Shown piece by piece: positions 7,372 to 46,506 of a stretch of DNA of 64,000 nt. This DNA comes from Polytrichum commune (Eukaryota; Streptophyta; Polytrichopsida; Polytrichales; Polytrichaceae). The position numbers and the translations under genes are program-made. How positions within the stretch are numbered: position 1 is the first letter of the stretch; the number at the start of each line of letters is the position of its first letter. The notes beneath the pieces are model-generated. The model saw only the letters and a list, made by a program, of their open reading frames with translations. It ran no database searches and was not told the DNA's origin. The DNA is taken from assembly GCA_950295325.1 (NCBI GenBank), contig OX485804.1:69416033-69480032 (forward strand). The letters are read 5' to 3'.

Positions 7372-8854
7372 TCAAGGTGAACCAACATCGAAACTCTGGT
7401 CACATTGATCAGCCTCGACATCCATGTATCTAAGCACTGTAGGGTTGAAAAGTTGACGTGGAGAATCTGAAAGGATTGGAGATGGGGCGCGTATGAAATC
7501 CTGTGCTATACGTTCGGCATATGAAGGTAAGGCGAACGAAGTAGGAGGACTCATGTAGACATCAGCGTGGCAGATCAAACGTCGTGCGAGACCTGCGTCA
7601 CTAAACAATAAAACAAAGTCAACATGACAAATTCTATGAATACATTAAATGTTTGAGAGACTTAAGACATGGAGTTAAGACGCACCGCAATACTTGTGAC
7701 CCTTCTTCTTCTTTGGCGCAATGTCTTCCTCAGAATCAGAGTCTGTGGTTGAATCCGCGCGCTCTTCTGGTTGCGGGATCGCATCCACGTAAGGCTTGAG
7801 AAGCGCCTCAAAGATTTCTGAATCCGGCTCCAACGCGATGAGGTGTCGGTTCGAACGTTGGCAAGCAATGATAGAAGCACCTGCAGTTTGGAAAACGGAA
7901 TTTAGAAAGTGGAATTCAGTTTCAGCTATTGTAAACGATGAAGGGAGAGATTGAAAACCTGTACTAGGGCTCCAGTCGCAGACGATATCATGCTCGTCTG
8001 TAAGACACTCGATGAAGCACTGAACAAAGGATGGGTCCTTCTCACCCGAGCCACGCCAAGGAAGTCCGCTAGGGCGTAGAAGTTGGGACTCGGTTGTCGT
8101 GAAGTTCGTCAAGTCGTCGCGCTCTTCGGGAAGGATCTCCATTTGTACGAACTGTGGTCGCAATCGGCGAGTGCGGAACTTGGAACTAAGGCGTGCAAAG
8201 ACCTTAATGTTGAAGTTATGGGTCTGTAAGACAACCTCAAGGATAAGTAGATATTGAAACTGATTGTCGGATTGAGAAATTCAAATTATGAACATAAAAG
8301 ATAATACCTCTTTCTGGTGTGGAAGGGAGGAGGCCATGGGAATGGGATTATAGCCCCACCAATCCCGGACAATCGTAAAATCATAGATTTTGATTTTACT
8401 ATCTAACTTCTTCTCGATTCGACGGTCCTTGGGATGGAAGAGTAGAACAACTCCGTCATCGGTCAAGTGACAATCTGCGAAGGCGAAGAGTTGGTCAAAG
8501 TAGTCTATCTCTCGCTTGTTCCACGATGGTACGGACATGGGGGAGATGACAGGCACGACCAAGTCTTCGGGAGCGTCAACAATCACGAGATCAATTCCAG
8601 GATGCCTAGGCCGCATTTGCATCGATTCACAAGGATAAGTACGGCCGACCCCGATCTGTATGAATAAGAGTAGTGGAAAGCATGAGTTACCGATAATAAA
8701 AAACCTCACTAGTCCAAGAAAATTGTCAAATTGATAGTGTTAGTGAGATATGGGATTGTGTGACCTTGATAATGTGGTCTACGATACGGACAAGTTGCCG
8801 ATCCATGAATTTCTGGTGTTCAGACTGGTTAAGCAAGGCACAGAAGTTTCCATG
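7372..8854 (-). pseudogene. Gene B, 3' exons: methyltransferase-like domain of the ParB-like/MTase protein
   Basis: Exons: 8,854-8,765 (HGNFCALLNQSEHQKF, donor AAG/GTCACA), about 8,686-8,309 (acceptor TTCATACAG; GIDLVIVDAPEDLVV then HLTDDGVVLLFHP), about 8,163-7,960 and 7,880-7,690 joined across a short intron (AGTACAG/GTTTTC to ACTGCAG/GTGCTT) giving DWSPSTGASIIACQ and NRHLIALEPDSEIF, and a last exon about 7,605-7,372 (FALPSYAERIA). The order motif IV-like (DAPE) then SAM-binding motif I (STGAS, RHLIALE) matches beta-class N4/N6 DNA methyltransferases. The catalytic PP of motif IV is not canonical, so activity is uncertain. It is homologous exon by exon to gene A (9,062-10,329). Its 5' part lies at 19,064-21,941, cut off by the inner transposon. 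Confidence 0.72.
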
Positions 8855-8864
8855 CTCAAGAAAC
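8855..8864. repeat. Target-site duplication of the 10-kb inner element, left copy
   Basis: CTCAAGAAAC, identical to 19,054-19,063. Joining the flanks through one copy keeps gene B open: ...TTLPMFLE then HGNFCALLNQSEH.... Confidence 0.92.
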
Positions 8865-8960
8865 GGGGAGTGCTATCTTATGAGCGGTGAGCAATGAGCG
8901 GTGAGCGATGAGCGGTAACTTATGAGCAGTGAGGAAGATGAAAATTTTGGTAATAGGGCC
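8865..8960 (+). repeat. Left terminal inverted repeat of the inner element
   Basis: Tip GGGGAGTGCTATCTTATGAG, then four to five units of the form (A)TGAGCGG/TGAGCAA, ending near GAGCAGTGAGG. The right end carries the same in reverse complement, with GCAGTAAC and CATATGAGC variants. Confidence 0.85.
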
Positions 8961-9061
8961 ACCAATATCCTATAACCGTGGAATTGTGGCCTTAAAAATG
9001 ATGATTTTAGGGTTTAGTAATAAGAGGGTTGAGAAGGATAAACAACATGAAGTCCAAAAAT

Positions 9062-12000
9062 TTATTCATCAGTAGTAGCACTAGACATGAAACTATCTTT
9101 TGCCTCGTCATCTATATATATTCGAGCACCTTTGCATTGCGAATTGATTTTGGAACTATAGCAAGATTCTTCATTTGGATCCGAATCTTCGAGATTCAAC
9201 ATTGCAATTGCAACATTCTCGGCATATGATGGGAGACGCGGGCTACGGCTTGGACTTCGTAGGAATTGTCTATGTGCCCAAAACGGGAGACATGTCCTCT
9301 TTCCAATCGTATTCCTGAAATCAAATCGATGAAACATGTAAATAATGTGAAGAAATAAAAATGAACCAATGAATTGAATGAAACGAATGAATTGAATAAA
9401 AATTTATTGTATCAAAACTTACTCACACTCAAATTCAAGCATCTCCTCATCCGAGAGGTCATCATCTTCTTTTGTGAGATCTTGTATATTCTCCTTAGAT
9501 GACCCCTCTTTCAAAACCTTTTCCAAAAGCGGTTTCAATAAGTGCTCAAACATGTCATTATCACCCTCAAATGCAAGAAGATGTCTGCCACATGCGCGTG
9601 TTGCTAGGATAGAAGCTCCAGTGGAACACGTCAAATCAACAACGCGTCCATTCGATGGTGTAAACAATTCAATAAGATCTTGAAAAAAACGCGGCGATTT
9701 TTTATATGGCCCCCTCCAAGGTCTTCCCGATTTTTGAAGAAGCATGTTTTTTTCATCCACAAAATTGAAAAGCAAGTTTTTGCTTTTCAATCCAGTGCCA
9801 AAAAAAGTGGAGTTTGGTTGTCTCGTGGATTTTGTGGTAGTAAAATCCCTTACCAAGACATGAGCCATAAATGCCGGAGTCTACAAAAAAATATAAATTG
9901 TGTTAAAACTATATACAATACAAATAACACTAAAATAATTAAATAGAAACAATTGTGATGCGTTATACTTACGGTGTACGTTGGAGACTCCGGATCCTTG
10001 AACACCATGTACGAATTGAGGCAAATAAAAGTCCTAAGAACTTTCATGTTGCCGTTGTGTAAGGTTAAATTCAAAACCTTATTGGTTTGCATATCGATAG
10101 CAGAAAATACTATGAGGACGCCATCATCAGACAAGATGGACTTGCACAAGGACATTGTTGCAACCATCCAGTTCTTGTCATATTTATTCCAAAGAGGAAT
10201 TTCAGCAGGTTTATTGGAGAGGTTGAAGTCAAGACCGTCGGGAAATTGGAGAAAAACCAAGTCAACGGCAAAGGGAGTCGGACTTCCCATGACATGAAAT
10301 TCGCGATTGTCATTGAACTGAAATACCACAACATATCACAATATAAGACACAAAATAAAACCCAAATGAAAGTAAGAACATTAGAAAAAATACCAAAACA
10401 ATAACACTTACGTTTTCAATAAATTCCCGCCATTGGATCCACTTAGGAGGGCCTACATCCACCCCTTTAGACTTGTTCTTGACAGCAGTAGATCGAGCAA
10501 ACGAGAGCATGAGAAAGTTCTTCAATATGAATAACTCTTTTCTCAAAATATCCGTTGGCGCACGATGAATAGCGTCATAGGTGCTGGAGTAATGAAATTC
10601 CAATACATCGCACCCAGACTTTGAACTTTCGCATCCAAGTGGATTCTTATCCAAATCATTGGAAAGAACAAGCAATTCTTCATGTTGTGAAATTTCCAAT
10701 TGACCTTGTATTTTGGTTTCAGGAATATGTTTCCTCTTACGACGTTTTGTCTCTTTTGGTTCTGGCTCTCTAAGTTTAAGCTGCACAATTTGTGCTTGCA
10801 AAATTGCAGTATCACGAGGATCCACATTTTTAGCATCATTTATTTGACGGATTGTCTTCTCACTTGACGGACATGCATCCTTAGGACAATCAAGATACCA
10901 ACCACAATCCTCATAGTGTGGGAGCGACCAATCCAAACAAATCTCAGTAGTGAACATGCATGAATCTCCTGCACCAGTGTCACGCCAATTTGGGAAAAAA
11001 CGAGGTTCCCCTACAACGCATTTATGTGGAATCAAAACATATCGAAAATACCTACACACAAAAATATTGTAAGTCAAATATTCCATGACAATTTGACAAA
11101 TGGAATCAAAAAAATCAAAAAAATCAAAAAAATAATAAGATTAGGTTGTACCTGTATAATACACGTTTCATAGCAAGATCAATATTAGGTTGCTCATCCC
11201 AACCATTGTGTTTTTTAACTTTTCCGCTTTGGAATTCACGATAGAATATTGAATTGAAAGCCGCAAATTTCCAGGTTTGGATATACTCGGAGAGAGTAGG
11301 CACATCTGCAGGCAACTGAAGAGGAGATGAAAGAATACTTTGAAGCTCTTCGATAGCTTTTTTTTCCAACTGTGCCCAATATGTAGACTTTGATAACCAA
11401 TCATCAAGTGCAGAATCAGAGAGGGGCGATTTCGGGAAATGCAATGCATCTTTGTCAAATCTATTGCCATTCCAAAGCTTGAGCCATCCAACTTTGACTT
11501 CTGAATCCACATTACTGACAGCAACACGACGAAGTTTCTCTTGTAGCATTTCAGGCACCGAAAATGAACCCCAATGGTGCTTAACTTCTTCAAGGAAAGT
11601 AGAGGTAAGGTTGATGTCGGCAATCGCTAGTTGTTTCGTAAAACTAGAAGATAACATTGCACGTTTTTTGTTGACAGCTGCGGACATTGCTTTTGAAACT
11701 CCGTCTGATGTCCGTTCAAGAGGATAAGTTTCATTGTACTGGTTGAGAGCAATATCGCTAGCCTCAGCAAGTTCTTGCTGAAAAATCAAACAAAAGTCAA
11801 TATTTATAAGTACATATAGATATAATGTAAAATGAAGATGAATAAACCTAAGGCACATATTAGCAATGGTAGAAGAACTTACACTGTACATGTAATCCAA
11901 AAAAAGTGGTCGTGTCAAAGAATACCAAGTTTCAACGGACTTCTCCTCACATCGTTTATAATTCTTTGGATCCAGTTGCTTTCTGAAGGAAGTCAAAGGC

Positions 12001-14948
12001 ATGGTGCCTATACTTTGCATCCGATATAAAGTATGCACCAAATTGGTGGATACGTGAGAATTTTCGGTTGACATGAAAAAAAATTTAAATTGATTAGATT
12101 CATGATGATATAATTTGGAAAACAAAATATAAACTAGAAATAAGTATAAAAAAATAGGTAAGAACATTACTTGTTGATGTCATGCATAGCAGTCAACAAA
12201 CTTGGAATGTCGTCAAGCTCGGACGCCAAAATGATAGAATCCACGAAGACATGACGTTCATAATCTTCGGTATATACGCGGTCAATATAATTTTTCCAAG
12301 CAAAAAATCTGTGATTTCCATCCCATATAAAAAACATCTTGTTCTTGTATGACATCAATGACAAATCTGTATCCAATTGAGATTCAAACAGGGCATTGGT
12401 TTGAACCCAATTTGGGCTCCAAGATGCGCGAACCTCATCATCCACGAATTGAAAGTTTCCCTTAGAATCGGTGGCTGATATATAAAATACACGGTCACCA
12501 TCACGATAACCATTGAAAAAATCAGCCTCCAATTTAGTAATGTCACCCTTCAAAGCAGGACGTACAATCGGTATAGGAACCATGCGACATAAGGGTACAC
12601 GCAAGCGAGCATTAGGTCCAGCACGGATTGAGGAAATTGTGGAAGTGGAATTGACCTTTCGTTTGTTCGTAAGCTCCCACACTTTCTCTTGATAAGTTTT
12701 ATTGTCACCATCATTATCTTCATCCGAATCAAAATCATCTAGGGATTCATTTTTTATTTTTTTTCTTATTATGAAGATTTGACGATATATCCTGATGATG
12801 ATGAACCTGTTGAGATGGACGATCTTGAGTTGAATGCATTGTGCAATCATCATCAGTCGAAATAAGAGTCGTTCTCTCCAAATCCATTGATTCGTCCTAA
12901 AATAAATGAAATAAGTTTCATAAATATTCCAAAACCAGTAGCAACACATTAGCAATAATATTACAAAACCAACAGCAATAACAGCATAATACCACGAACA
13001 CAGGGAAAATGACAAAAATTATTCTACACATTGCCATTTGCACCTCTAAATATTGTACGATTACGGTGGCCGCCCACCCCAAAACTACAAGGGCAGACCC
13101 TGTGCGTTAACGCACAGGGTCTGTGAGTCCAACTACAGGTCTACAAAAGTTGGGCGCGAGGTTTGGGTCGAACGACCCAAATTGTCCATCCAGTTTCGAT
13201 CGAGCGACCCAAACCGCCTACAGCCAGTTTGGGTCGAACGACCCAAACTTTCTACGCGTGGTTTGGGTCGGCCGACCCAAACAAGGCGGACAGTTTGGGT
13301 CGAACGACCCAAACTGTCCGCAATTTACGCCTGATTATGCGCAATTACCCTGTCATCACGAAAGTACAAACAAACCTTGTACTGCACCTGTAGATGAGAG
13401 AGCTTGCAGCGACGAGCTAAGGTCCGATAGATGAGAGAAAAAAGACTGAATGCTTTGGGGGTGTGGCAATTTATACTACTCGTCCCTGTAGCCATATTTA
13501 GCGTGGCTGTTCGTGGCCCCGCATAGCCGCTAGAAAGTTGTCAGCGTAGACCCTGTGCGTTAACGCACAGGGTCTGCGCTGGCAACTTTCTAGCCACTAT
13601 GCGTTAGCGCATAAGGTCTGTGCGTTAGCGCATAGACCCTGTGCATTAACGCACAGGGCCGAGGCATGAATTTTATAAAAAACTTTTTTTTTTGAATTTT
13701 TTTTGTCTGGAATTGGTAGATTTGCCAAAACTTGTAAAATCTGGAAAAAATGCTAATGGGGTCCAAAAGAAAAAGAAAAATATGCTATATTATCTAAATC
13801 TCCGTAGCTAAAAATTCTTCTGATATTTTTTTTTGGTTTGAAATCATTTTCTTTTCTCATTCTTCTATCTATTTCCTTGTTTTAGGCCACCTCGTAGATT
13901 TTGGGTTTCGGGGCAAAAAAAAATTATTCTATTTTGTGTCATTTTCTAGCTCCTATAACGTATTGCATGAATACTTGAGTAGACATATTTCTCATTTCTT
14001 GCATTCTAACCCCGTTTTGAATAGTTTTTTTGGTCCTACGCTCTGAATATCGATTTAAATTCATACAATAGATATTTGTTTTACTTTTAAGCTCTCCTAG
14101 TCGTTTTACCTCCCAATTTTTGGCGTTCCTAAGTTGCTCTTACAAACCCTGTGCGTTAACGCACAGGCTTTTACCTCCCAACTTTGGCCTTCCTAAGTTG
14201 CTATTACATACCCTGTGCGATAACGCACAGGGTTTTAGCTCCGAATTTTGGCCTTCCTAAGTTGCGCTTACAAACCCTGTGCGTTAACGCACAGGGTTTC
14301 TCCTCCCAACTTCTCGCCTCCTAAGTTGCTCTTATAAACCCTCTGCGTTAACGTATAGGGTTTTACCTCCCAACTTCTCGACTCCTAAGTTGCTCTTATA
14401 AACCCTCTGCGTTAACGTATAGGGTTTTACCTCCCAATTTCTCGACTCCTAAGTTGCTCTTATAAACCCTGTGCGTTCTCCTCCTGACTTCTAGCCTTCC
14501 TAAATTTTTGTTATATACCATGTGCATTAACGTATAGGGTTTCTCCTCTCCAATTTATAACCTCTATAAATTGCTACTACATGACATGTGAGTGAACGTA
14601 CAAGGTTCTCCGTCCTAACTTACAACTTATGCACTATCAAATTATGTGAACGTTGAACTGACTTACCTTTTTGTTTGTCATCTTCTTTGAACCCGTCTTC
14701 AATTCGGACTCTGATATACGATCGTCTACATCTTCTTTGCTTTTTGCACCTTCATCATCCTCCATCGCATCAAAATTCAGTGTCTTCACAGTTTCTTCTA
14801 CCGTACTCAACAAGTTTATTTTCCCACTCTTATTTGCATTCTTCTTTCCCACACTCAGTTTGAACCTCTTTTTCTCGGAAGTGAAATACAAAGCTTTCCT
14901 ACGTCTTCTCTTCGGCCTCACGGGTGTTCTCTCTACATCGTCCACCAT
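9062..14948 (-). CDS. Gene A: ParB/Srx-like plus DNA-methyltransferase-like protein of the inner element
   Basis: Multi-exon minus-strand gene. Exon 1 is 14,948-14,667 (basic, VRPKRRRRK; 94 codons, donor AAG/GTAAGT). A 1.77-kb intron holding palindromic repeats follows, then exon 2 from 12,896 (acceptor TTTTAG) with a ParB-like domain: VPLCRMVPIPIVRP, GYRDGDRVFYIS and GNHRFFAWKNYI. Middle exons (12,160-10,430) include STENSHV, VGWLKLWNGN and CGWYLDCPKDAC. The methyltransferase-like part follows: FAVDLVFLQFPDG with LSDDGVLIVFS (10,329-9,970), then GRPWRGPYKKSPRFFQDLI, VVDLTCSTGASILA, GRHLLAFEGD (9,868-9,420), and a tail exon with LPSYAENVA (ends 9,062). SAM motif I is good; motif IV (FPDG) is degenerate. 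An A-run near 12,755 needs one base less to keep frame, so this copy may be damaged. Exon borders are approximate. Confidence 0.72.
13161..13317. repeat. Array of GTTTGGGTCG inverted repeats
   Basis: Three units have arms GTTTGGGTCG and CGACCCAAAC (one ending AAAT) around AA (13,161; 13,227; 13,292). One has a GGCC centre and is a perfect 22-bp palindrome (13,261). A degenerate half unit lies at about 13,195. Arms extend to 13 bp in the last unit (ACAG...CTGT). Confidence 0.85.
13521..13602. repeat. 82-bp near-perfect palindrome
   Basis: Two 39-bp arms flank a TTAA centre, with four mismatches. The arms include GCTAGAAAGTTG on the outside and CAGACCC-TGTGCG next to the centre, so the family core TGCGTTAACGCA is the middle of the palindrome. 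Confidence 0.88.
14105..14610. repeat. 64-bp tandem repeat with palindromic core TGCGTTAACGCA
   Basis: CCCTGTGCG or its variants recur at 14,147, 14,211, 14,275, 14,339, 14,403 and 14,467 (exact 64-bp spacing), with two degenerate units at about 14,518 and 14,584. Each unit holds the palindrome plus a spacer like TACCTCCCAACTTnnnGCC and CCTAAGTTGCTCTTA. Units 4-6 show TGCGTTAACGTA variants. It lies inside intron 1 of gene A. Confidence 0.9.
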
Positions 14949-15470
14949 CGTTGGTGTCTATGATATGTTTTCTATCAGGTACTATCATTTATTCTTCCAA
15001 TGTATCTATCTCACAAAATCCGGCGTATATTATGATCACATGTTGTAATTGGCGTTCAATGAGCGAGATATTTCGACGCGTTTGTCATTATGTGTTTATT
15101 TTTGTTATATCCGCCAAAATTTTCTGACACCTACTTTGTTCTATTCATAATGATCAATAATTTATTTTTCCAACCAATTTTAATTCTTTCTACATCTACG
15201 TCAGTCCACACATATATATTTTAAATTTCTACCAATATTTTTAGTATTTGACGCCATTTTGTGTATATCTTGCTCGTAAATATTCTCTGACTATTATTGT
15301 GTTATGTCGACTTCTGTATTATTAAATGCTATGTATCACACGCTTTCATCTCCATCCATTATTGTATCACACGTTTTCATTTCCATTCATTTCCTCACAC
15401 AACTCTATACAAAAGTAACATTCACCCCATATTTTTGTGATGTATTGTTCATATGTTCTTTTGATTTTCT
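14949..15470. promoter_or_regulatory. Intergenic region between divergent genes of the inner element
   Basis: About 520 bp of AT-rich DNA between the start of gene A (minus, 14,948) and the transposase start (plus, 15,471). No further gene is seen. Its position makes it the likely shared promoter of the two element genes; I could not pick a single confident TATA box. Confidence 0.45.
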
Positions 15471-18148
15471 ATGGCTACCATTAAAGCTCATGGATCTTTT
15501 GTTCCCTTCATCTTGCCACTCCAAGATGATGGTCATGTGAGTGTTTCAGAGGATTTATTTAGTTTGAGATTCAACCTCCAGATAGGAACCATGTATTTAG
15601 AGCATGAGATGTACTCTGCAAATGGAGAGGTGTATGAAACGATTTTGGTTCCAAAAAATAGAACTGATGTTGGTTTTATGTGGATCCTAGGACCTGGTTC
15701 ATTTAGGGTGATAGGACTTTCTGAGTCTCAGATGCAAGCTTCAACTGTCATTTTGACAAACGAATCCGGTACATCCACAGTTCAAATTCCCTCTATCGCA
15801 CCTGTTAAGGTGGAACCCCTTGATGATAGTGTGTTTGTGCTATCAGATTCAGAAGATGACATTTGTACATCTGTTGATCTTTCAAACACATCGCCATTTC
15901 CATTTAGAAGTGTTCATTCTACTCCTTCCCAACTTCCTATACATGTAGCCAAATTCCCTTGCGGTCTTATGTACAAGAAGGTGGTTCCCCAAATCTCACA
16001 TTCTCAACGTCCTCCACTACACCCTTCACCTTCATCTACAGGGTTGACTATGATTGATGCCTTAAAGCTGACAAAGTCAAGAAAAAGATCAAAGTCCGAT
16101 CTTGCATCCATTGATTTTGACAGTATAGATGTTCGTGAAGTCAAGTACTTACCATCTTCTTTTAATGGTGATGTTTTGTTTCTCTTGCCTCCTGTGGCAC
16201 TCAAAGCTCCAAGTACGTATGGTCGCTCAATGGACGGCATGGACAAGATGTGCGACGGTCACCCTTGGTGCACCACCAAAACCACGAATATCCAAAATGA
16301 CTTTGGACTGTCCTTCCGGCGCTCTACTTGTGCTGGTCATCTCGAATGTCATAATGACTACTGTGATTACATGAATCGCAATGGGGGCCTCCGGAACAAC
16401 ACTGAATGGGCCGGTTCAACTCCTATCCCATTTGCTGTGGGTGTTGTTCCCCCTACTAAGTCCACTGTCGAGTGTAAGGTATGTCGTTCCACACCTGTGT
16501 GCATTGCTTTGTGTAATGCTCGAATCATATACATCCACTCCACATCCGTTGGAATGTCCAGGGCTTGCATTCATCTTGGTGTACATGATCACCCTGTGGC
16601 CAATGGCACATGCCGTGAATCATTGGACATGGCATACCAATGCATTGCAAATGAGGTATTGAAAACACCCACAGCAAAAAATTCAGCCATAGTTATGGCG
16701 GCGGCGGCGAACGACCCAAACTGCCTACAAGGTTTGGCTCGCAAACGACCTTGTATCCTTGTATTTGTGTGTTGTTCATAGGATATGACAATAGAAGAGC
16801 GTGCGGAAATGCCAACATGCAACCTTGCAGAGACTGTACACAACAAATGGCTCCAACAGTCCGGCAACAAGATGACTTGTTTATATGAAGCTACAGTGGA
16901 CGACATGATCCGTGCCTTCATGCAAATTGCAAATTACCGGACATGGTTGAAAGGGGGTCTGATGGTAAAGGTCCTGATTCGGCCTCCTTGAAACTCAAAG
17001 CAGCTGCCAGGTGTGGAGATCCAAAAATGTTGGCTGATGCCATGAAGTCTTACCCAGGGGCAGAAGACGTCAACACTAGAGATTGTGCATTGGAAGGGTC
17101 AGAACTCTTTGGTTCCACCAAACGCAAACTCAACCTACCACCGGGTGCTGATTGTGACTCTCATCGACCCGACAAAGTGAACTATTCCATTCCTCGTCCC
17201 AACACCCGAGCAACTCGTCAACGCATAGAGGAATCGTTGAGTTCTGCAATTCATGGTGTGGCTCATACTACATCCGTATTAGAGACTGATTGTCTTGCTT
17301 CCAACTGGCACATTGCAAGATTACCACCCAACTCAGCCAAACGATGTTGGGCACTGCAGGCCATTACAGGGACTATGTGCAATGCTAAAATCGGGACTGG
17401 GAAACATGGCACACCTGCCCCAACATACAAAGGGCTCAGGAAGGAATTTCGATCTCCCAACAATGTGGAGTATGAATTTTGGTTTTGCCCTGACGACATC
17501 AAGCGTTGTGTGAGTGGCAGTAAGAAGAAATATGTGTTGGACTGGCCTATAGTACCCAACACGTGGCCGGTGAAGATAGGTACCAATCTATCGAGAGAGG
17601 AGGTTTTGGCACTTGAAGATGCTGGATTTCAACTACAGCAGAGGGAGGCATTGTCCCCTCGTCGTAGGCTTTCAACAATTGCAACTCTCCCCATCCCTCG
17701 CTCGCATTTTTCTATGCCACCAAACCCGGATGCCCACCCTACATTCAGGTTTGGGAAGACAGTGCGTCGTAATCCAACAGCACCGCTAGCGGATCACAAA
17801 AACAAATGGGAGAGTGCCGGACTCATGGAGGATTACTATGTGGTTGGGATCACTGCCATTCCATATCCGGGCTTTGGAGTGATAATCAACATTGTCTCCA
17901 AGCAGGATATCACTTACCATGTGACAATTGGCGACATCCCGCATTGCACATGCCCGGATTTCACGAAAATGTCCTCTCATGCATTGGGAAAGAAAGGAAA
18001 ATGGGTGTATTGTAAACATCTTTATTATGTGTTTAGATTTTTGTGCAAGGTGGATTACGAGAGTGACAAGTTCATTCATGCACCTACATATACCTTTAAT
18101 GAGGTCATGCGACTACCTGAACTTGCTGGTATTGTAGAATGTGAGTAG
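15471..18148 (+). pseudogene. Inner-element transposase: GCM-like zinc domain and SWIM finger, DDE core missing
   Basis: The start ATG at 15,471 opens a 436-codon frame. It has an N-terminal region with FRVIGLSES, an acidic Ser-rich linker, and a WRKY-GCM1-like zinc domain (GMDKMCDGH, GLSFRRSTCAGHLECHNDYC, VECKVC, CIHLGVHDHPV). It then runs into a scar at about 16,700-16,780 where the outer homologue has about 300 residues of DDE domain. The C-terminal part resumes at 16,781 (acceptor TTCATAG): CNLAETVHNKWLQQSGN. A frameshift in a G-run near 16,955 follows (one extra G restores LKGGSDGKG), then GTNLSREEVLALEDAGF and a SWIM finger (CTCPDF ... CKHLYYVF, about 17,948-18,030). Mutator-like transposases cut and paste their element; without DDE this copy should be catalytically dead. 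Retained DNA binding is possible. Confidence 0.78.
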
Positions 18149-18265
18149 TATTGCAAATGTTCTATTAAACAACATATATTTCAATGTCAATAAATGACAT
18201 GTTTTGGTTTGGATTATTATAATAAAAATTAGCAATGGACTGAAAGTATTTCAAATGATTCAGTA
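18083..18265 (+). repeat. 3' end of transposase gene, first copy of a duplication
   Basis: The last codons (from GCACCTACATATAC), the stop region GAATGTGAGTAG and the following 3' flank with ATTATAATAAAAAT reappear at 18,657-18,835 with about one change in seven to ten bases. Confidence 0.85.
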
Positions 18266-18359
18266 ACTTCATTTTTATTTAGACTACATCCAACCGTGAG
18301 TGGTTTCATTTATTCATACGGATAAATAATAACAAGTTTCTAAAAATAAAAAATAATTA

Positions 18360-18545: not shown

Positions 18546-18656
18546 ACCTAGTAACTACCTACATATTGACAATTTCTATTATCTAATTTGCTTGTTTTTG
18601 TAGATTGTGGGCCTTAATTCAACCCGTGAGCGGTTTGAGTGGCTCACAATTATGGC

Positions 18657-20458: not shown

Positions 20459-20491
<33 letters not shown>

Positions 20492-37100: not shown

Positions 37101-37840
37101 CTGAAATTGCAAATCAAATATCAAGCAAGAAAAAAGCTTTTTGAAAAATGTCACCTCTGGACCCCTGCGCCAGCGCAGGGGTCTGTCCATTTTCAAGAGC
37201 AAACTCTGGAACCCAGAAAAAAAACCCTTTGGAGCTCATGAACCTAACTGACCTAACCTCATGTCCCTACTGAAATTGCAAATCAAATATCAAGCAAGAA
37301 AAAAGCTTTTTGAAAAATGTCACCTCTGGACCCCTGCGCCAGCGCAGGGGTCTCTCCATTTTCAAGAGCAAACTCTGGAACCCAGAAAAAAAAACCCTTT
37401 GGAGCTCATGAACCTAACTGACCTAACCTCATGTCCCTACTGAAATTGCAAATCAAATATCAAGCAAGAAAAAAGCTTTTTGAAAAATGTCACCTCTGGA
37501 CCCCTGCGCCAGCGCAGGGGTCTCTCCATTTTCAAGAGCAAACTCTGGAACCCAGAAAAAAAACCCTTTGGAGCTCATGAACCTAACTGACCTAACCTCA
37601 TGTCCCTACTGAAATTGCAAATCAAATATGAAAAGAAAAAAAAACGTTTTGAAAAATATCACCTCTGGACCCCTGCGCCAGCGCAGGGGTCTCTCTATCT
37701 TCAAGAGCAAACTCTGGAACCCAAAAAAAAAACCCATTGCAGCTCATGAACCCACCTGACCTAACATCAGGACCCTACTGAAATTGCAAATAAAAAATGA
37801 AGCAAAAAAAAAATGTTTTCAAAAATCTAGCCTCTGGTCT
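22160..37840 (+). repeat. 169-bp satellite array, about 93 monomers, each with a palindrome
   Basis: Period is exactly 169 bp in the core (e.g. CTCTCC at 33,125 and 33,294). Each monomer holds an inverted repeat with arms GACCCCTGCGC and GCGCAGGGGTC around CA, an A-run after GGAACCCAG, and AAGCTTTTTGAAAAATGT. Monomers at 22,160-24,900 and after 37,640 are more diverged; the centre is highly uniform. A 12-monomer higher-order repeat of about 2,028 bp is visible: blocks at 28,697/30,724 and 29,703/31,730 (offset 2,027), and 32,357/34,386 and 33,541/35,570 (offset 2,029). It lies between exons of gene B, probably in an intron. ORFs inside it are chance products of periodicity. Confidence 0.97.
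26681..27520 (+). repeat. Two-monomer higher-order unit within the satellite
   Basis: The variant ACCCTTGCGCC recurs at 26,681, 27,019 and 27,357, exactly 338 bp (two monomers) apart, alternating with ACCCCTGCGCC monomers and co-varying with GAACCGAAC/GAACCTAAC. It marks a local dimer expansion. Confidence 0.85.
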
Positions 37841-37975
37841 CTCCATTTTTGAAAAATCTAACCTCGGCCTACCTCCTCCGACGTCCGCTCGCGTCCCTCC
37901 TCCGACTTCTCCTCGCCTTACCTCCACTTCCCTCGGCCTCCCTCGTCCCGAACTCCCAAACAGAGTTGGGACACT

Positions 37976-38426
37976 GCCGCCTGCCAGAGGGGCGGGGGAG
38001 GGTTCGGGAGACTTTGGAACTCAACCAGCTAAAATCCGGCCCTTCCCAACATCCACCGGTTTCTTCAGAATTTGACCGGTTGCAAACTTGTTGACATTAA
38101 TTTGGACCGGCCAATATTCTATAATATGTTTTTTCAAGTGCCGGTTAATTTATTCTTGATTGTAATGACAACCGGCCAAGAACTTGGGCATGTGTTGCTC
38201 CTACTTAACATATGCCCAAGTTTTTGGCCGGTTGTCATTACAATGAAGAATAAATTAACCGGCACTCGAAAAAAAATTATAGGATATTGGCTAGTCCTAA
38301 TTAATGGCAACAAGTTTGCAACCGGACAAATTCTGAAAAAACCGGTATAAGTTGTGAAGGGCCGGATTTTAGCTGGTTGAGTTCCAAAGTCTCCCGAACC
38401 CTGCCCCGCCCCTCCGGGCAGGCAGC
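37976..38426. mobile_element. 451-bp fold-back element
   Basis: Long inverted arms: the outer part GCCGCCTGCC...GAGGGGCGGGG...GGGTTCGGGAGACTTTGGAAC pairs with its reverse complement ending at GGCAGGCAGC. Further inside, CCGGTTAATTTATTC, TGTAATGACAACCGGCC and CTTGGGCAT also have mirrored partners. The centre is near 38,195. I see no clear target duplication, so transposition is inferred from structure. It lies at the right edge of the satellite, beside gene B exon 3. Confidence 0.75.
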
Positions 38427-38445
38427 AAGAGAACTAGATGCCTAC

Positions 38446-39434
38446 CCCTTCTAATGCTACCAGAACTAGATTGCAAGTCACTATAAGATGGAATGGGTTC
38501 CACCTCACAATCCTCTCCCTCACAATCACCATATGTGATTTTACTGGATGTGTACTTTTTATCATCCATATTATGGTTGTATTCCATCTGTTAACATTTA
38601 TAGAGTCAAATTTGCAAATAATGGAGTAACATCGTTTCATCGTCAACTGCCTAAGAAAGACATCTATAATCAGGTGACCAACAATTGATATAAACAATCG
38701 TAATATATCCTTATGACATCTACCCAACATGTGTTCCTAATCCATCGTCAAATTATCATAAACATCGAATTTCCAGGGTTTGGGATAAGTACCAGGAATC
38801 CTTCATCTAATTCTTCTTCCTCTCCTAGTTTCTTGCAGTCCATCACATCGCGTTCTTCGACTTGATCTTCGTTGGGTGCGCCCTCAATTGCAGCACTTCC
38901 GTGCTCGTCTTGCTGCCCAAAAATTTCACCAACCAGTGTCTCACTTTCTTCGTACTATACACATCAACGCAAGGTAGAATATGACTTAGGTTTAATACTC
39001 ATCTTTCAAGGCTTTAGGGTCTTGGAACTTACAACTTTATCGATCCCTTCTTCGTCACTGTCATGTTCGAATCCCAAAGAATCACTCCTCGATGATGAGG
39101 GCCTTCTACATTCTTGCTCTTCAACTTCATTGTCCTTTTCCCCTCCATCGTCTTCTTCTTCACCATCAACATTTTCAACAACAACATCCAAGTTCAACGG
39201 CTGCATCTCGATAGTCTTTCTAAACATTCCTGGCTCGTCCTCATCGTTCTTATCTACTTCATTTACTATTCGATCGTCTTCGCAAGAACCCGGGGCATCC
39301 CTCTTCCGCAACGCGTTCCATCGCAAAGCCTTGGCTCCACTGAATTTTATACCACCTCTCTTCTTCTTCCTCCCCCGCCCTCCCTCGTTCACTTTGTCTG
39401 TTTTACTACTCGTACCCTCCATAGTTGGCTCCAT
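38446..39434 (-). pseudogene. Gene B, putative 5' exons (acidic/basic N-terminal region)
   Basis: Exon 1 39,434-39,033 (134 codons, basic GRGRKKKRGGIKF then strongly acidic; donor GTT/GTAAGT), exon 2 38,954-38,793 (54 codons, phase 0; YEESETLVGEIFGQQDEHG, acidic; donor CTG/GTACTT), exon 3 from 38,587 (acceptor TTAACAG; MEYNHNMDDKKYTSSKITYG) to about 38,446. Position, orientation, basic-then-acidic composition and phase-0 first donor mirror exon 1 of gene A, so I assign these to gene B, which implies a roughly 16.5-kb intron containing the satellite. The phase of the exon 3 donor does not obviously match the next known exon at 21,941, so a missing exon or a separate gene remains possible. Confidence 0.5.
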
Positions 39435-40053
39435 AGCTGATCAAACTACACAAATTTATAGAACAATGATAATACCCTAAACCGAACTACAACACAACTT
39501 GTATTTGAATAACCTAGTCCACCGAATCCCTTTCCTTTATATTTAATTTCTAGGAAGCTACGTCATCGAATTATAATCCCGCGTTTAATAAAACGCGGTA
39601 TCCGAGATTAGGTCACTAACAACACTGACATCGGTTACTAATCTATTTTCAATTTGTCGATATATTTACGCATCTCCCTTGACAATGACGGCCTCCATAA
39701 ATTTTCAAATTATCATATGTTTCCATAAAAGGTTCATACACCGTTAAGGTTTACCTTCATCATTTCGGCGTAGCATATATTAGGTTATCAAGAATGAGTT
39801 ATTTTTTAGTTCGTAGGAAAATTAGTCTATACTGACATGTATCATATTTAGGGGCCATAAGGTAATGACTATTACTAGAGTACATTCTAATCCTACATGA
39901 AACATGTTGTCTAGAATTGACATGAATAAATATTGACTATTAATTGATCTAATAGGTTGTCATGTATTTGGGTATTGGTGTCTACCCAAGGTATATATAA
40001 TACCCGATTATTGGTACCCTTTTTTTCATGTCATCTCATCATATTCTTCTCCA
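39435..40053. promoter_or_regulatory. Intergenic region between divergent genes of the 41-kb element
   Basis: AT-rich DNA between gene B exon 1 (minus) and the plus-strand reading frames. A TATA box (GGTATATATAATACC, about 39,990) lies some 60 bp before the ATG at 40,054. No gene is seen inside. It is the counterpart of 14,949-15,470 in the inner element. Confidence 0.5.
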
Positions 40054-40485
40054 ATGGGTACTGACTCACGTCTCCCAAGCCTTGCTCCATTAGGTGCTCC
40101 TAGTTCATCGCAAATTCACACCACGTTTTCATTCGATGGTTCTCCAGGCGTCAACAACCTGAAGATTCTCAACCCACCTGACTGCTCAGTTACTCCGGCG
40201 GTCGTCGTTCCTAAACCACAGACTCCATCTTTGCAGGCAGTTGATGCAACACTGATACAGAACAAGTCTACTTTCAAGATTCATGCATATTCTAGAGCAG
40301 GTGTTATTAAACCTGGCACTTACTCTAGATCCATATTCAGGAGTGCCAAAGGTCAGAAACTCGATTGCGCAGGATGCACTGCAGTTCGTAGCTTAGGGAT
40401 TGACCATTGTCATAAACATGACGGTGACAAATATGGCAAAGGGCCCCATATGGCAAAGGCCCCATTTTCGTCTGGCACTCCATGA
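40054..40485 (+). CDS. Small Cys/His protein of the 41-kb element, unknown function
   Basis: A 143-codon frame starts at an ATG about 60 bp after a TATA box. The N-terminal half is Pro/Ser-rich; the C-terminal half is basic and ends with a compact Cys/His pattern (LDCAGC...IDHCHKHDGDKYGKG) that could bind zinc. I do not recognise the family. It could be an accessory gene or a 5' exon of the transposase that starts at 40,679; I see no counterpart in the inner element. No ParB, MTase or SWIM feature is present. Confidence 0.4.
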   Translation: MGTDSRLPSLAPLGAPSSSQIHTTFSFDGSPGVNNLKILNPPDCSVTPAVVVPKPQTPSLQAVDATLIQNKSTFKIHAYSRAGVIKPGTYSRSIFRSAKGQKLDCAGCTAVRSLGIDHCHKHDGDKYGKGPHMAKAPFSSGTP

Positions 40486-40678
40486 TTTATTGTTCACAAT
40501 CCTGTTCATACATGTTATTATTATTTCTCATATTTAACCAAACATTTTCTGACTACATTCTGTACATGTCTGGGATGTCCAACGTCTTTATCAACCTCTC
40601 ATATATATATCCCATTGTTTCTTTTCGATCCCTCTTTTGCAAATTCCCTCTCCCATTACATTGTCAAATTGTTTCTCA

Positions 40679-41923
40679 ATGTCTTCCGCTGCTGTCCAAG
40701 CTCCACTCGTCGATGTCATCGAACTTGTTTATCCTGGATCTCTTATCCCTACATGCATACCTCCTGGCCCTGATGGAACTGCTGATCTCACTCCCCAGTG
40801 GCTATCCATTCGTTATGGTTTCGATGCTGATAGCTTGTGGTTAGAGACAGATGTTGTCGATCCGGATACTCGAAATGTCCTTTATTCCTTATACGTCCAG
40901 CCCGTAACGTTAGACAATAATGCTCGCGTTTGGAAACTCAAGCCCGGAAGGTATCGTGTCTTTGGCTTGTCGGAGTCCATGAACGCGACTACAGTCCTAC
41001 TCACTCCTCGCAGTTCCTCCACACTGTGCACTGAAGCCCCCTTACTGTCTCGTGTCAAGATCGAACCAGGTCTCCGCGTTAGCATCGATTTGTTTGATTC
41101 TTCTGATGAAGAGGGGAGGCCTTCCCATCCATCAATCCGGTCTAGTGCTAAACGTCCATCTCCCTCATCTTCTCAAGATTCACGTAGGACTACTCCTTCC
41201 CTTATACCTTCGCAAACTACTAAACTCATAAACATTCTTCCCTCCCTTCGTTCCCTGGGTAGTATGCCGAAGCAAGTCAGTACTTAAAAAACTGAATTAT
41301 GATTCCATCCGTATTGAGATTGTAGATTTCCTGCCACCGTCGTTCAATGGGGATGTAATCTTCATTCTTCCTCCCACACTTCCATCTGCCCTCCATAAGA
41401 ATGCTAAATCTATGGAAGGTATGGACAAACGTTACGATGGCCATATATGGACAAAGACTATGACTACTAACATCAGTAACACGCTGGGGCTGTCATTCCG
41501 GTCGTCTAACTGTGTAGGTCATCTTCAATGCCACAATCCCACATGTGGGTTTCTGCAGCGGCCTGAACGCGCATATGGAGTGAACGAGGTCGAGTTCGAA
41601 GGTTCTTCCAAAGATGTTTTCCCTGTTGCAGATGCTCCACCTCCAACTTCAACATTAGTCTGTAAGATCTGTAAAGAACCTCCTGTTTGTGTAGCTTCTT
41701 GTGATGCAAAAATCTTTTACGTTTTTGGAGATGATACGCAAGAGCGTGCTTGCGTCCATGTAGGCAACCATAAACATCATGTCAAGGTAGGAGACTATAG
41801 GGGCACGCGGAAGATAATCGACGATTTTATCGAACAACATGTTGAGCGCAACCCGCAGGCTACCATTTCCAAAATAGTCTTGGAAACGTCCAAGGATGTT
41901 TTAGGTAACGTCTTGCTCCGCGA
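40679..41923 (+). pseudogene. Outer-element transposase, N-terminal part (GCM-like zinc domain)
   Basis: I chose the ATG at 40,679 (CTCAATGTCTTCC) because the downstream sequence aligns with the inner transposase start. The frame gives a region with LKPGRYRVFGLSES (cf. FRVIGLSES in the inner copy), an acidic SSDEEGRP stretch and a Ser-rich linker. A frameshift at about 41,260-41,275 moves to the frame RSKSVLKKLNYDSI, then FNGDVIFILPP, GMDKRYDGH, GLSFRSSNCVGHLQCHNPTC, LVCKIC and CVHVGNHKHHV, the WRKY-GCM1-like zinc domain. The frame is then cut by the solo LTR at 41,924 after ...GNVLLR and resumes at 43,999. The zinc domain probably recognises element DNA. Confidence 0.75.
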
Positions 41924-43993
41924 TGTTAGTAACAACATTCTAAGATAGATTGAAGGCACAAAGAAGCAACAAACGACACCAAAACATTATCCCCGAGAAA
42001 AGAAGTGCAACACCGAAGAAAAACGATGAAGAAGCTTTCGGCCATGGAGCTCGGCCACGGCCTTAGGGCCCCTTTCCCACGGCTTTGCGTACTCGACGCG
42101 CGGTTATAGGTCTTCTTACCCACGGCAATGGGTGCCCAACGGGTTTTTGAGGAAGAACTTAGAAATTAAGAAGAAGGGCTACTACATTAGTATTAAGGAA
42201 TTAGTATTAGGCATTATGAAACATATTAGGGCATATAGAAATAGGATTTTGAGATTAAAGGACCATTTAAAGAGGCAATATGGGAGGAATGAAAGATTTT
42301 GAGGATCAATGACTATGAGGCATAATGGCGGAGAATATAGGAATGTAGTATTTCGATGGGCATGATTATGGAACTTGTGAGAATGTTGGAATATTAAGAA
42401 TTATTTTGAAGGTGCATTATGAGCATATAGGACAAAGATAGACTCTACTAATATGTTTTACAATCATCGGAATCAATCAACATGGAGATTTGAATTAATC
42501 CTCAAAAGGGAATTGTGATGTAACCACAATGAGGATATAGTAGAATCTTGAGAATACAAACATTAGGAAGGAAGAACGGTTGTAACCGTTTATGGTAGAT
42601 AGAATCTACATATTTTGAAGATAGATAGTTATTTAGAAAAGTGGAGATCACAACCACTCTTAATGTAGATTTTGGATTAAAAAGAGAAGACTATATAAGG
42701 GAAGCAAATTAGGAAACTATTACCTTATTTTCTACACAACGAAGTTATCTTAAATTTGAGTGTCAAGAATCACTTGAAGCTTTTGTAACTCTCTTCTCGA
42801 GGAACCTTTGCAATACACTTATCTTTTCCCACAAATGTATGTGTGACATTTCTATCTCTCTCTCAAATTGTCTTACAAGTTTGTCAAGCGGTACTTGGAA
42901 CTTGAGTAATTGAGCAACCGAGAGTAGAGTAGATTGAGTAGACTCTTTTGAGAAAGAACTCAAAAGATAGTGCGAGGGTGAGAACAAAGCGCTCAAGACA
43001 AATTGGAGAATCAATGGGACTTTGAGAGAGATTGAATTGAGAAAGCGATTGTTTAACTTGAGTGAAGGAAACAAGATTATCTCTCAAAGCGGAACTTATC
43101 ATTGATCTCCTCAAAAGGGAATTATAATTATTCATGTGATTAATTGATTGAAGAAATATATACATGTTATGATTTGAGCAAAAGAGGAGGAGCTTATTAT
43201 TATAAACTACATAATCGACTTATACATATTATACTACATATTGATTGATTGAACTTATGATTGACAAGAATGATGAAGACATTAATTCACATCAAAGTTT
43301 GAATACATATGAATGAAGTAATATTGATATAAGATAATCTACTTACTACAATTGTTATAGAAGCTTCTTACTTTAAGATTATTTGTGAGTTGTTGGATGT
43401 CATTATAATTTGAAGGATTATCTATTCAAGAGAAGATCTCTCTCTCTCTTGAGCAAAACTCAAGAGAGATAGGTTTACTTCTCGTCATCAAGAAACACTT
43501 TGAAGTTAAACGTGACATTGCAAAACAATCAATGATGTGTTCATGAAATTATAACTACTATATGTATACATGACAAGTTACAATATTATAAGTAGTAACA
43601 CTTGAGCTTAAAAAGGAAGACTCAAGAATATTAGATCTTCCTCATCGTTATAAGATTATTATCAATTGTATAATTGATGTGTATGAACTACAAAACTTAA
43701 TGATTCATAGAACTTATTGAAACTATATGTTATTGTTACACCTCTTGAAGCTTTCTTAAATCTAAAGGTTCTTATTGTCAATGATGCCTTACATTGAGAA
43801 CAAGAACTAAGATAATGAGATTGTGTTCACTCCAATAATATATTCATATCATAAGGAGAAGAGAGGAGTTATTAATCCGGGAACCGAGCATATTAATGAG
43901 ACACGGTAGTTCTCAAGCGAATATAAATTTACGTGATGTGCATCGTGAGTCCTCTTAGCTAAATTGCAAAGGAGCGACCCACGGCGTCCATCA
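41924..43993 (+). mobile_element. Solo LTR (copy 2), inserted in the outer transposase, TSD CGCGA
   Basis: TGTTAGTAACAACATT... to ...CATCA, 2,070 bp, flanked by a perfect CGCGA duplication (41,919-41,923 and 43,994-43,998). Removing it with one TSD copy joins ...GNVLLR to EEDDPPTLLSLEQ in frame. A TATA box (CTATATAAGG, 42,691-42,700) lies in the LTR sense strand. Same family as 68-2,204 but opposite orientation. No internal retroelement genes remain. Confidence 0.93.
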
Positions 43994-43998
43994 CGCGA

Positions 43999-46506
43999 AG
44001 AAGACGACCCTCCCACCTTACTTTCTCTCGAACAGCTAGAGCCTATCTTCCAATGCTGCAAGGAGCTCAATTCCCCTAACTTAAAAAACCGTGTCTACAG
44101 TTTCAAGTATTTGCGCAGATATGGCGTTCTTGATGGCATCACTAAGCTCAGAGGGCTTAGCAATTGGGCCTACGTGCAACGAAACATGTTTCCAGGCCAA
44201 GGTGACGACTCCGACAAGGTCTTCATATTCAAGATGTCCGAGGTGGGACCTGGCAGCGGTGTTGACCTTGTCCGCCGAATGCAACCTAGCGGCGATTTAG
44301 AGCTCTCCTGGATGATGTTCGACCACGTCAAACGAGTTGCCAATTGGACCACCATGGCCTGCCACGTGTACGACTCCTCTTACCAACGTGTACTCACCAT
44401 TGGTTGCTGTGATTTCCAGTCTGAGGACAAAGATGCTCAACTCGTTTTCTGGAAGAACCTTAACCATGTCATGGGTAGGCATGGAATACACAAGCCGCAG
44501 TTCAAAGGTTTCATGGTTGATAGTGCGCAAGCCAATTGGAACGCTGTGCGCATCATCTACGGATCCGGAGACCCAAAGATACCCATGGAAGGCTGCGAGC
44601 GAACGTGTTATTTCCACTGGGCGCAATCCCTAGAAAAACACACCAAACAATACATCGTGCACGAATTGCAAGATCAACACAAGAAATTGTGTATGCAGTA
44701 CAAAGATGCACGGTCTGTGGCAGAGGCTGAAACACGTTACTTGGAAATCAAAGCCTGGTGGACATCTTCGGGTGCCACCTCTGACGCTGGCCTCCACCAT
44801 TTGAACCACTGGCTTGCGTTTTGGCATTTCCGATACAGGCAGTGGGGTGGATTCATGGAACTGGTAAATATACACTCTTTCATTCAAATTATTTAATTCT
44901 TTAAGTTTGCATTCTTTTCTCTGCGTCTAATGTAGTATCTAAACAATATTAAATCTTTTGCTTTTAAATGGCATGGCCCACCACGACTACTCCTTGCTCA
45001 CTTGAGTTTCCGAACATTTTCTAAACAGTTGCCTTCGTACAGGAGAAGAAATATTCTCCGGATGAACTAGCTGAAATGCCCTCTTGCAATCTTGCTGAGA
45101 CCGTTCACAACAAATGGTTGCAAGCGTCCGGCAATAGGGGTGGCGATCTCTACGTGGCAGCCGTCGACGATTACGTTAGAGCATTCTTGCAAGTGGTGGG
45201 GTACTATCAATACCTCAAAGGTGGAGCGGGAGGCTCTGGACCCTCGAGAGAAGAACTTCGACTTCGCACAGCCCAACGCCGAGCTCACCGAACTGGGGAT
45301 CCGACTACCCTGAACGCAACCGTCTTGAACATGCCCGGAGCCGAAGATTTCTGTACTCGAAACGCACACCTCGAAGGAGCTGAGGTTTTTGGGTCGAGGA
45401 AACGGAAGCCGGATCTTCCCCTTGGCACCGAAGAAGAAACTCATAGGCCAGACACTGTTAATTTTTCACGTCCTCGAGTGGGTCGGAGGGTGACACGTGC
45501 TCGTGCTCAAAATTTGAGTACCATCCATGAGGAAGTTCACGTGGAAGTGGAACGCCCAGCACAGCCCCCTGCCTCAACTGGCATAGATATTGGACGGGTG
45601 ACGGCCGTGGAGGAGACTCGTGTGAATGAGAAGCTATGGCACATTGCCCGAATTAATAAGGTTTCTGCGAAGGCTTGTTGGGCGCAGATGGCTGTCACTC
45701 GAAAAAAGTGTACAGCCCGTATCGTCCAAAACGGGAAGAGCACACCAGCTTCCACATACACTGGCCTTTGGACCCACCCTCAAAAAGGCAACCAGAAGGT
45801 GGTAGAGCAGTTTTTTTTCTGTGCTGACGATATTGAGAGGTGTGTGAAGGGGTATCGTCGACGATGGATAGAGCCATTTTCGGATTACGAGGAACGACCT
45901 CCCATCCCGTCGGTTTGGCCTGTGAAGATAGGGACCAATCTCACACGTTCCGAGATTGAGGCGTTGGAGAATGCGGGATTTCAACTTCCCCAAAAGCAAA
46001 GCGTTCCTGTGAGCCGCATGTTCAACAGTTCAGCACCGCCACCGGATCTGTTACAGGTTCCAATGCCAGATAATGCGGACGTTTATCCTAAAACACGAAA
46101 GTCAAAGAACATGCGCCGCTCAATCACTTGTGCCAGTTCGAAGCACATGCAGAACATTGATTCCGCTAGAGCAATGAAGGCAAGTATTCTGAAGGTAGTA
46201 ATGATACCTCAACCCGGTTTTGGATGCGTTGTAACTTTGCAATCTAAACCAGCTCCCACGGAGTCAGTTTACCATCTCTCAATCAGTGCCTACCCAGACT
46301 GCAATTGCCCGGCGTTCAAAAAGACAATGGCTAAGCTGGGTAGACGCGGGTGTCCATTCCGACCTTGTAAGCATCTTTACTATATATACGTACAAGTCTG
46401 CAAACTAGAGGCCGACCATGACCTCTTCATGCATGCGCCTACCCTCAGTTTCTTGGAGGTGAAAACAATTCTTGAAAGGGGGATCTTAGCCCATGCTACA
46501 GTTTAG
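43999..46506 (+). pseudogene. Outer-element transposase, DDE core and SWIM finger
   Basis: Continues the frame from 41,923. The MULE-type DDE region is IGCCDFQSED (first acidic site), KGFMVDSAQANWNAV (second), and CERTCYFHWAQSLEKH (the C...H pair between second and third sites). An intron runs from about 44,863 (donor CTG/GTAAAT) to 45,042 (acceptor CGTACAG), phase 0. The C-terminal part has CNLAETVHNKWLQASGN, GTNLTRSEIEALENAGF, and a SWIM zinc finger CNCPAF ... CKHLYYIY (46,300-46,390), stop at 46,504-46,506. This half looks intact; the gene is disabled by the upstream frameshift and the LTR. The protein would bind element ends and cut and paste the element in the nucleus. Confidence 0.8.

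Follow-up and report, generated by a model that had tools for sequence, protein, structure and literature searches.

Proteins that join a ParB-like domain to a methyltransferase domain are reported as accessory proteins of brown, green, and red algal transposons (PMC12477816). In the Ectocarpus-type element, a Sola1 DNA transposon of a brown alga, such a protein is encoded by a second gene on the strand opposite to the transposase and combines a ParB-like domain with a methyltransferase domain of the N4-methylcytosine/N6-methyladenine (4mC/6mA) type. Three further systems bear on the comparison. VANC, an extra protein of the Mutator-like elements (MULEs) of the VANDAL group in Arabidopsis, binds tandem repeats in their noncoding DNA and removes silencing marks subfamily-specifically (PMC10398659); the B. 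cereus ParB-methylase Bce_0392 joins a ParB/sulfiredoxin (Srx) domain to a methylase (PMC5512222); and fungal DNA transposons with TET/JBP dioxygenases carry a DNA-modification gene discussed as a means of countering silencing (PMC12730594). Here we describe Mutator-type DNA transposons of a moss-like plant that form a large family with two genes; two nested members lie in the 64,000-nucleotide stretch shown above (the window). A transposase (gene A) and a protein with ParB-like and methyltransferase domains (gene B) are encoded divergently, and in most copies read arrays of palindromes lie between them. The host is a photosynthetic plant, with 58 matches to the chlorophyll a/b-binding family; for one of these proteins a two-repeat LHCI-2 chain (9vfj_2) ranks first among PDB chains, followed by 8htu_U, a moss chain, which makes a moss-like plant probable. 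Its genome comprises 408 Mb in 64 contigs, C1 to C7 being 42–78 Mb each; L006 to L037 denote individual stretches or copies that were read, and places are given as contig:Mb.

Like the algal type, the family described here has a ParB-like and a methyltransferase domain in one protein, encoded opposite to the transposase strand and inside a DNA transposon. The kind is therefore already known, because ParB-methyltransferase proteins are reported in algal transposons (PMC12477816), and the statement in the original prediction that no described plant element joins the two was too broad. Compared by description, the algal element belongs to Sola1, whereas the present family is MULE-type, with 10-bp target-site duplications (TSDs), and comprises several subfamilies. 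Its palindrome arrays and altered motif IV go unmentioned in the part of the algal account that was compared (PMC12477816). As far as the sources were read, four features are new: a MULE-type element as carrier in a land-plant-like genome, a pairing so constant and on such a scale, a motif IV that has been replaced, and the arrays (for which the literature was not searched). The likeness to VANDAL/VANC is one of arrangement, a MULE with an extra protein and subfamily-specific tandem repeats in noncoding DNA (PMC10398659); unlike VANC, B has ParB and methyltransferase domains, and anti-silencing by B is putative. Unlike the bacterial ParB-methylases, B is split by introns, resides in a eukaryotic transposon, has motif IV replaced, and gives no Pfam ParB_N match. 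The fungal TET/JBP transposons differ in enzyme class and transposase superfamilies (PMC12730594).

Both elements in the window have terminal inverted repeats (TIRs) and perfect 10-bp TSDs, CACTTTGGAC at 5605–5614 and 46954–46963 for the outer element and CTCAAGAAAC at 8855–8864 and 19054–19063 for the inner one. Two further inner-type copies (C1:63.98 and C3:17.50 Mb) are complete to both ends and flanked by 10-bp TSDs (CTGCCTACAC and GTCCGTAGAC), and each holds B plus an A that includes the DDE part; three inner-type copies in total are bounded in this way. TSDs of the MULE superfamily measure 8–11 bp (PMC6446971), and the TIRs and TSDs of all four elements fall within this definition. For outer- and third-type copies outside the window, ends were not found in the stretches examined, which may stop short of them. 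An assembly artefact was set aside as the source of the elements because ended, TSD-flanked copies recur at several places. The nested pair had been placed at 7372–46506; the nesting holds, and the true ends lie outside that span (5615–46953).

The association of A and B was followed genome-wide in lists of the best-scored candidates. For A, 130 of 1795 candidates were scored with the outer query and 138 of 2052 with the inner query; for B, 47 of 3238 with the full inner B (loci drawn from exon matches), 150 of 1274 with the third-type ParB, and 150 of 1215 with the outer ParB, the last list contributing only 33 places judged not already listed. B was found upstream and divergent within 40 kb at 97 of the 130 listed A loci (16/23 and 81/107 by subfamily), while 1000 randomizations (with rounded lengths for C4 and C6) gave a mean of 1.2 and a maximum of 5. 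Seen from the other gene, a divergent A lay within 20 kb at 35 of the 47 listed inner-type B loci (random mean 0.35, maximum 3 in 500); the window's inner copy counts as a miss, because its A lacks the part used as query. In the reverse direction, 45 of 138 listed inner-type A had a listed B, a low figure because the B lists are short for the inner type. All ten B copies picked for diversity matched the ParB part and, within the methyltransferase domain, the first half, and nine matched the second half at least partly; the stretch of the tenth (L024) ends before it. On first impression the commonest A subfamily lacked B, but B was found beyond the array, further upstream, in both copies tested; at C7:40.43 Mb no match to the B queries appeared within the 17 kb examined. 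The predicted sharing of one divergent gene pair by the two nested elements is confirmed; the TIR/TSD ends and this genome-wide pairing place it beyond chance, and the 97 loci answer the objection, raised with it, that copies might routinely lack B.

A scan of prokaryote genome contigs returned a single relative of B, on CADCWO010000058.1 from a cyanobacterial bin ('Synechococcales AVDCRST_MAG81'), with the ParB part (41% identity) and the methyltransferase part in separate open frames. An A gene, 49% identical over 457 amino acids, lies on a different short contig of that bin. Both contigs (L026, L030) are transposon-derived; because of their intron-like gaps they are probably eukaryotic contaminants, and contamination of the bin is likely.

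In the inner copy, the five B exons downstream of the ParB exon join as one open frame, the junction with the ParB exon being provisional. As read, B has about 950 amino acids without exon 1 and consists of a ParB-like part, a middle region, and a methyltransferase domain spread over two exons. The outer B is recognized by GYREGDRVLYVS and GNHRVTAW, the inner B by GYRDGDRVFYIS and GNHRFFAW, followed by STGAS and RHLLAFEGD. Across 13 aligned ParB-exon sequences the G, H, and R of the GNHR motif are invariant. An AlphaFold model of the exon reached a predicted local distance difference test score (pLDDT) of 79 and a predicted template-modeling score of 0.76. The top 30 Foldseek rows were sulfiredoxin, ParB, Noc, PadC, free serine kinase, and Atu1540, all with expect values (E) of at least 0.11, and unrelated rows followed. 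A second structure comparison listed 30 rows at Z 4.3–6.1, of which 20 were named ParB, Noc, KorB, PadC, or sulfiredoxin; we take the remaining 10 (SbnI, free serine kinase, 1vk1, Atu1540) to belong to the ParB/Srx superfamily as well. Because the structure matches are consistent and the GNHR motif is present, the model assigns to B a predicted ParB/Srx-fold domain at the superfamily level. The predicted ParB-like core was thus recovered by structure modeling, while the proposed check against Pfam ParB_N (PF02195) failed, with 0 of 13 ParB-exon members matching; the assignment is therefore to the ParB/Srx superfamily and not to the ParB_N family. ParB-domain profiles found nothing credible among PDB sequences and PHROGs, no relative of B turned up among viral contigs in two pattern scans, and a profile search with the middle region of the inner B found no PDB relative. 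Scanning the genome with Pfam ParB_N was rejected as a route to B, as it matched only on the small contigs C12 and C23. These matches are above cut-off, lie in open frames of 301–501 amino acids, and are probably bacterial contamination of the assembly.

The second domain is, by its profile matches, a beta-class DNA methyltransferase domain, as predicted. The joined domain matched the PDB entries of DpnA (6.8e-6) and CcrM (3.6e-4, over 15–226), and the NCBIfam CcrM model matched 5 of 8 members (best E 2.8e-8), the window's outer copy not among them; Pfam N6_N4_Mtase matched 2 of 3 members, below its cut-off (E 4.5e-4, 20.7 bits, cut-off 26.7). Of the two folds whose absence had been named as the critical outcome, that of ParB was thus recovered from the structure model and that of the methyltransferase from profiles only.

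The catalytic motif IV of beta-class DNA amino-methyltransferases is [DNS]PP[YFW]. It occurs in none of the 16 B copies read, some of which carry stops. The variants are DAPE in the outer copy, DQPE in a nested copy in L007, DIPE in the third type (L015, L019, L024), DLPE in L016, L017, L018, L020, and L022, DVPD in L021 and L023, NVPK in L025, QFPD in the inner window copy and L010, and DVPE in the second organism. Position 4 is E or D in 15 of 16 and K in one, never aromatic, and position 1 is D in 13, N in one, and Q in two. The glycine and the following acidic residue of the S-adenosylmethionine-binding stretch are invariant (8/8). Motif IV is hence replaced yet conserved, which looks like a change of use rather than decay. 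The original prediction had listed self-methylation among possible roles, and B may indeed act as an amino-methyltransferase, binding the element that encodes it and placing 6mA or 4mC there. Such a function would suit a domain close to CcrM and DpnA with an invariant cofactor stretch, as well as the adenine in the 4-bp centres of several palindromes (GATC, GTAC, TTAA), and a methylation role is proposed for the Ectocarpus protein (PMC12477816). Self-methylation is nevertheless doubtful and in our view unlikely, since none of the 16 copies keeps the catalytic form of motif IV, and the altered motif makes plain methylation less probable.

In most copies read, a tandem array occupies the stretch from the ParB exon of B to gene A. 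Perfect inverted repeats with arms of at least 9 bases, spacers of at most 4, and an arm G+C of at least 0.4 were counted in 17 copies, in five of which the stretch read ended before A; the interval of the second organism comprised only 551 bases. There were 222 such palindromes in 95.5 kb of B–A interval, while the remaining 98.0 kb of these copies (exons, other introns, ends) contained 16; at least two occurred in 13 of the 17 intervals, and shuffling two intervals 20 times each yielded none. The inner interval alone has nine in 1.9 kb, with a 64-bp tandem repeat present 5.8 times. The palindrome core differs by B subfamily: TGCGTTAACGCA and GGTCGNNCGACC in the inner type, TGCGCCAGCGCA in the outer, CTCGGATCCGAG in the third (L024), CACGGATCCGTG in L021/L023, TTCGGTACCGAA in L016, and CTGCAATTGCAG and its kin in L018. 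The B contig of the second organism shares the third-type core: its 551 bases upstream of the ParB exon hold two copies of CTCGGATCCGAG.

The same palindromes were located throughout the genome. The outer 24-mer occurs 63 times, 57 of them in the window's interval, and the other six all lie inside outer-type intervals. The third-type 22-mer occurs 1903 times (reversed control, 0), and 49 of the 50 listed places, all on C1, lie inside A–B intervals, the listed intervals making up about 0.29% of the genome. Of 411 inner 24-mers, 50 were listed (all on C1) and 35 of these fell within 20 kb upstream of A, while random points gave a mean of 0.6 and a maximum of 4. For the L021-type palindrome (84 genome-wide), 22 of 50 listed places were inside intervals and 30 near a listed A or B.

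Outer-type A genes, 94–98% identical, are found beside outer-type B (e.g., C1:1.53, C3:40.73, and C7:40.36 Mb) and also beside L021/L023-type B (C6:44.20, C1:54.00, C2:22.69, and C2:37.56 Mb). The outer palindrome accompanies outer-type B at C3:40.73 and C7:40.36 Mb, with none at C1:1.53 Mb, and CACGGATCCGTG accompanies L021/L023-type B. As one type of A occurs with two types of B that differ in palindrome, the transposase does not determine which palindrome is present; the palindrome goes with B, not with A. This bears on the idea that B controls copy number, by repressing or activating the divergent promoters or by aiding the transposase, for instance through nicking of DNA. The position of the array, with B's ParB exon on one side and the divergent gene A on the other, would suit this, and Bce_0392 nicks DNA non-specifically through its ParB domain (PMC5512222), but a palindrome that follows B rather than the transposase makes such regulation of transposition improbable in our view.

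Bacterial ParB acts on palindromic sites. By analogy, the B–A array looks like a cis target of the ParB-parS type, that is, a putative binding site. The proposed exon 1 of B adjoins gene A in the inner and outer copies, and the array would accordingly be intronic, in B's first intron. We give an even chance to the interpretation that B recognizes specific sequences in cis and thereby counters silencing or licenses transposition. Its ParB part would bind the subfamily-specific palindromes that separate the ParB exon from gene A, and bound B would mark copies of its own family as 'self', similar to VANC on VANDAL elements. The most likely use would be that the divergent promoters are kept open against host silencing and transposition is licensed. 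Protein and site, the latter on B's side of the divergent genes, would differ in each subfamily and so form a private recognition code. Within this proposal, we hold array binding to be better founded than anti-silencing; we infer the splicing of B, its DNA binding, and its anti-silencing role. A more far-reaching version, a complete eukaryotic counterpart of ParB-parS in which the methylating motif was lost, protein and palindromes diverge together, and own copies are opened against silencing, appears tentative, with somewhat less than an even chance. Chromosome partition was considered as a role of B and set aside (no ParA search was made).

Several observations weigh against cis recognition by B. 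Four of the 17 copies (L006, L017, L019, L025) have no perfect palindrome in the interval, L006 being of the outer subfamily; L017, L019, and L025 do have tandem repeats there. The 49 third-type places stem from only three C1 intervals, 20 of the 50 listed L021-type places are away from any listed A or B, and 15 of the 50 listed inner-type palindromes are not upstream of a listed A; before the inner-type A search, none of these 50 lay inside a listed interval and 10 were near a listed A or B. Palindromes of the inner type are further found within A, between its exons (L009, L011), and beyond the TIR in L010. Sequence conservation within the array unit was ranked in four arrays, L037 standing outside the comparison. 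The palindrome is the least variable stretch in three of them, the third-type arrays and L036 (rank 1/96, 1/96, and 1/64), a ranking that is biased outside the outer satellite because units were picked by palindrome likeness and their spacing varies; in the outer satellite it is no better conserved than the rest of the unit (rank 70/168). Since array and B adjoin, their joint inheritance is no independent proof, and the palindrome may travel with B only as a neighbor. The ParB fold match is weak by score (best Foldseek E 0.11; Z at most 6.1) and possibly reflects only a common arrangement, and profile scans found no helix-turn-helix in the middle region of B.

Some of these points would equally fit B as a passenger gene, with the palindromes as ordinary hairpin-prone minisatellites in a tolerated intron. 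Satellites grow in introns, one outer and three other copies are without perfect palindromes, and some palindromes lie outside B; in addition, two very close pairs of ParB exons, with few changes, have ratios of nonsynonymous to synonymous substitution rates (dN/dS) of 0.4 and 0.94. Against it, three more distant pairs gave 0.17 (L018 vs L022), 0.08 (L015 vs L024), and 0.08 (L016 vs L018, dS saturated), dS not being computable for 9 of 15 pairs; one A pair gave 0.15. B is moreover kept with A over several subfamilies, both are present in the second organism, shuffled intervals give no palindromes, and B subfamilies differ in palindrome at the same place. We therefore regard a mere passenger as very unlikely and retain cis recognition as the preferred interpretation.

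Transposon-borne proteins of this kind are known from algae. The family described here offers well over a hundred copies in several subfamilies, and most copies read have a candidate site of their own, which makes target recognition testable in vitro. The module of B plus array is found beside transposases of more than one type. It may represent a second, independent solution to the anti-silencing problem solved by VANC in Arabidopsis and, if the interpretation is true, a bacterial-type site recognition system would be at work in plant nuclear chromatin.

Gene A had been labeled a MULE transposase with WRKY-GCM1 and SWIM domains. The type of TIRs and TSDs agrees with the MULE label; the profile matches are weak, and the GCM part was read by eye. 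Pfam Transposase_mut matched in the second organism's A only (E 0.038) and SWIM in two cuts of the inner A (E 0.18 and 0.41), all below cut-off; the other A C-termini scanned gave no SWIM match, the A transposase profile had no match in PDB, and the structure model of A was poor (pLDDT 46). The outer A and B in the window are interrupted or frame-broken, and open copies exist elsewhere in the genome: for outer-type A an open frame of 756 amino acids is present in other copies, and the ParB exon stays open for up to 308 amino acids in several other outer-type copies, vs 196 in the window. The inner-type copy at C3:17.50 Mb has one stop inside the DDE stretch. The coordinates of all features are collected in Table 1.

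Table 1. Features of the two nested elements in the window (positions in the window; exon 1 and exon borders of gene B are predictions).
Feature	Positions	Strand	Remarks
Outer element, TIR to TIR	5615..46953		41.3 kb; inverted ends share GCATGAGCGTAGAGCG
Inner element, TIR to TIR	8865..19053		10.2 kb; inserted in outer gene B; 62-bp inverted repeat, 87%
Outer B, C-terminal stretch	7693..8223	-	second half of methyltransferase domain; intron-like piece inside
Outer B, exon	8311..8655	-	first half of methyltransferase domain; motif IV DAPE
Outer B, ParB exon (21066-21551) and middle region	19054..21644	-	cut from C-terminus by inner element
Outer array	22160..37837		169-bp satellite x92.8; 59 perfect palindromes, 56 of them GACCCCTGCGCCAGCGCAGGGGTC
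Outer B, proposed exon 1	39033..39434	-	basic peptide, GTAAGT donor; read from sequence, predicted splice
Outer gene A	40553..46506	+	transposase; interrupted in window copy
Inner B, last exon	9419..9880	-	second half of methyltransferase domain (DLTCSTGAS...RHLLAFEGD); open frame and splice joins
Inner B, exon	9973..10317	-	first half of methyltransferase domain; motif IV QFPD
Inner B, exon	10412..11051	-	middle region, no known domain detected; part compared with PDB, no match
Inner B, exon	11152..11777	-	middle region; no PDB match
Inner B, exon next after ParB exon	11883..12071	-	5' end uncertain
Inner B, ParB-like exon	12171..12751	-	GYRDGDRVFYIS, GNHRFFAW; 5' end provisional
Inner array	13090..14580		between proposed B exon 1 and ParB exon; types TGCGTTAACGCA and GGTCGNNCGACC
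Inner B, proposed exon 1	14667..14948	-	basic peptide, GTAAGT donor; read from sequence, predicted splice
Inner gene A	15465..18148	+	transposase; DDE part missing, SWIM-like C-terminus; relatives carry DDE

Some minor observations concern the elements and their surroundings. About 2 kb of extra sequence in the outer gene A (41948–43949), where other outer-type copies stay open, is probably a further insertion, and a TTGAGAG-type minisatellite occupies an intron-like gap of the outer gene B (20302–20491). Outside the TIR of the inner-type C1 copy L010, six palindromes of the GGTTTGGGTCG..CGACCCAAACC type are spaced by about 78–156 bp (4448–4919), possibly within another element. The outer element itself appears to split a minus-strand transposase gene (2500–5708 and 46935–47843), which we take to be CACTA/TNP2-like, the two flanking stretches having been read separately; the 10-bp duplication marks the insertion point between them. 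Further along the window, an open frame of 948 amino acids (57556–60690) starts in a GC-rich minisatellite with 15–95-bp units and has an end that is protein-kinase-like by eye. Elsewhere in the genome, 14 light-harvesting genes with identical scores lie within about 95 kb at C5:1.75–1.85 Mb, which looks like a recent tandem expansion.

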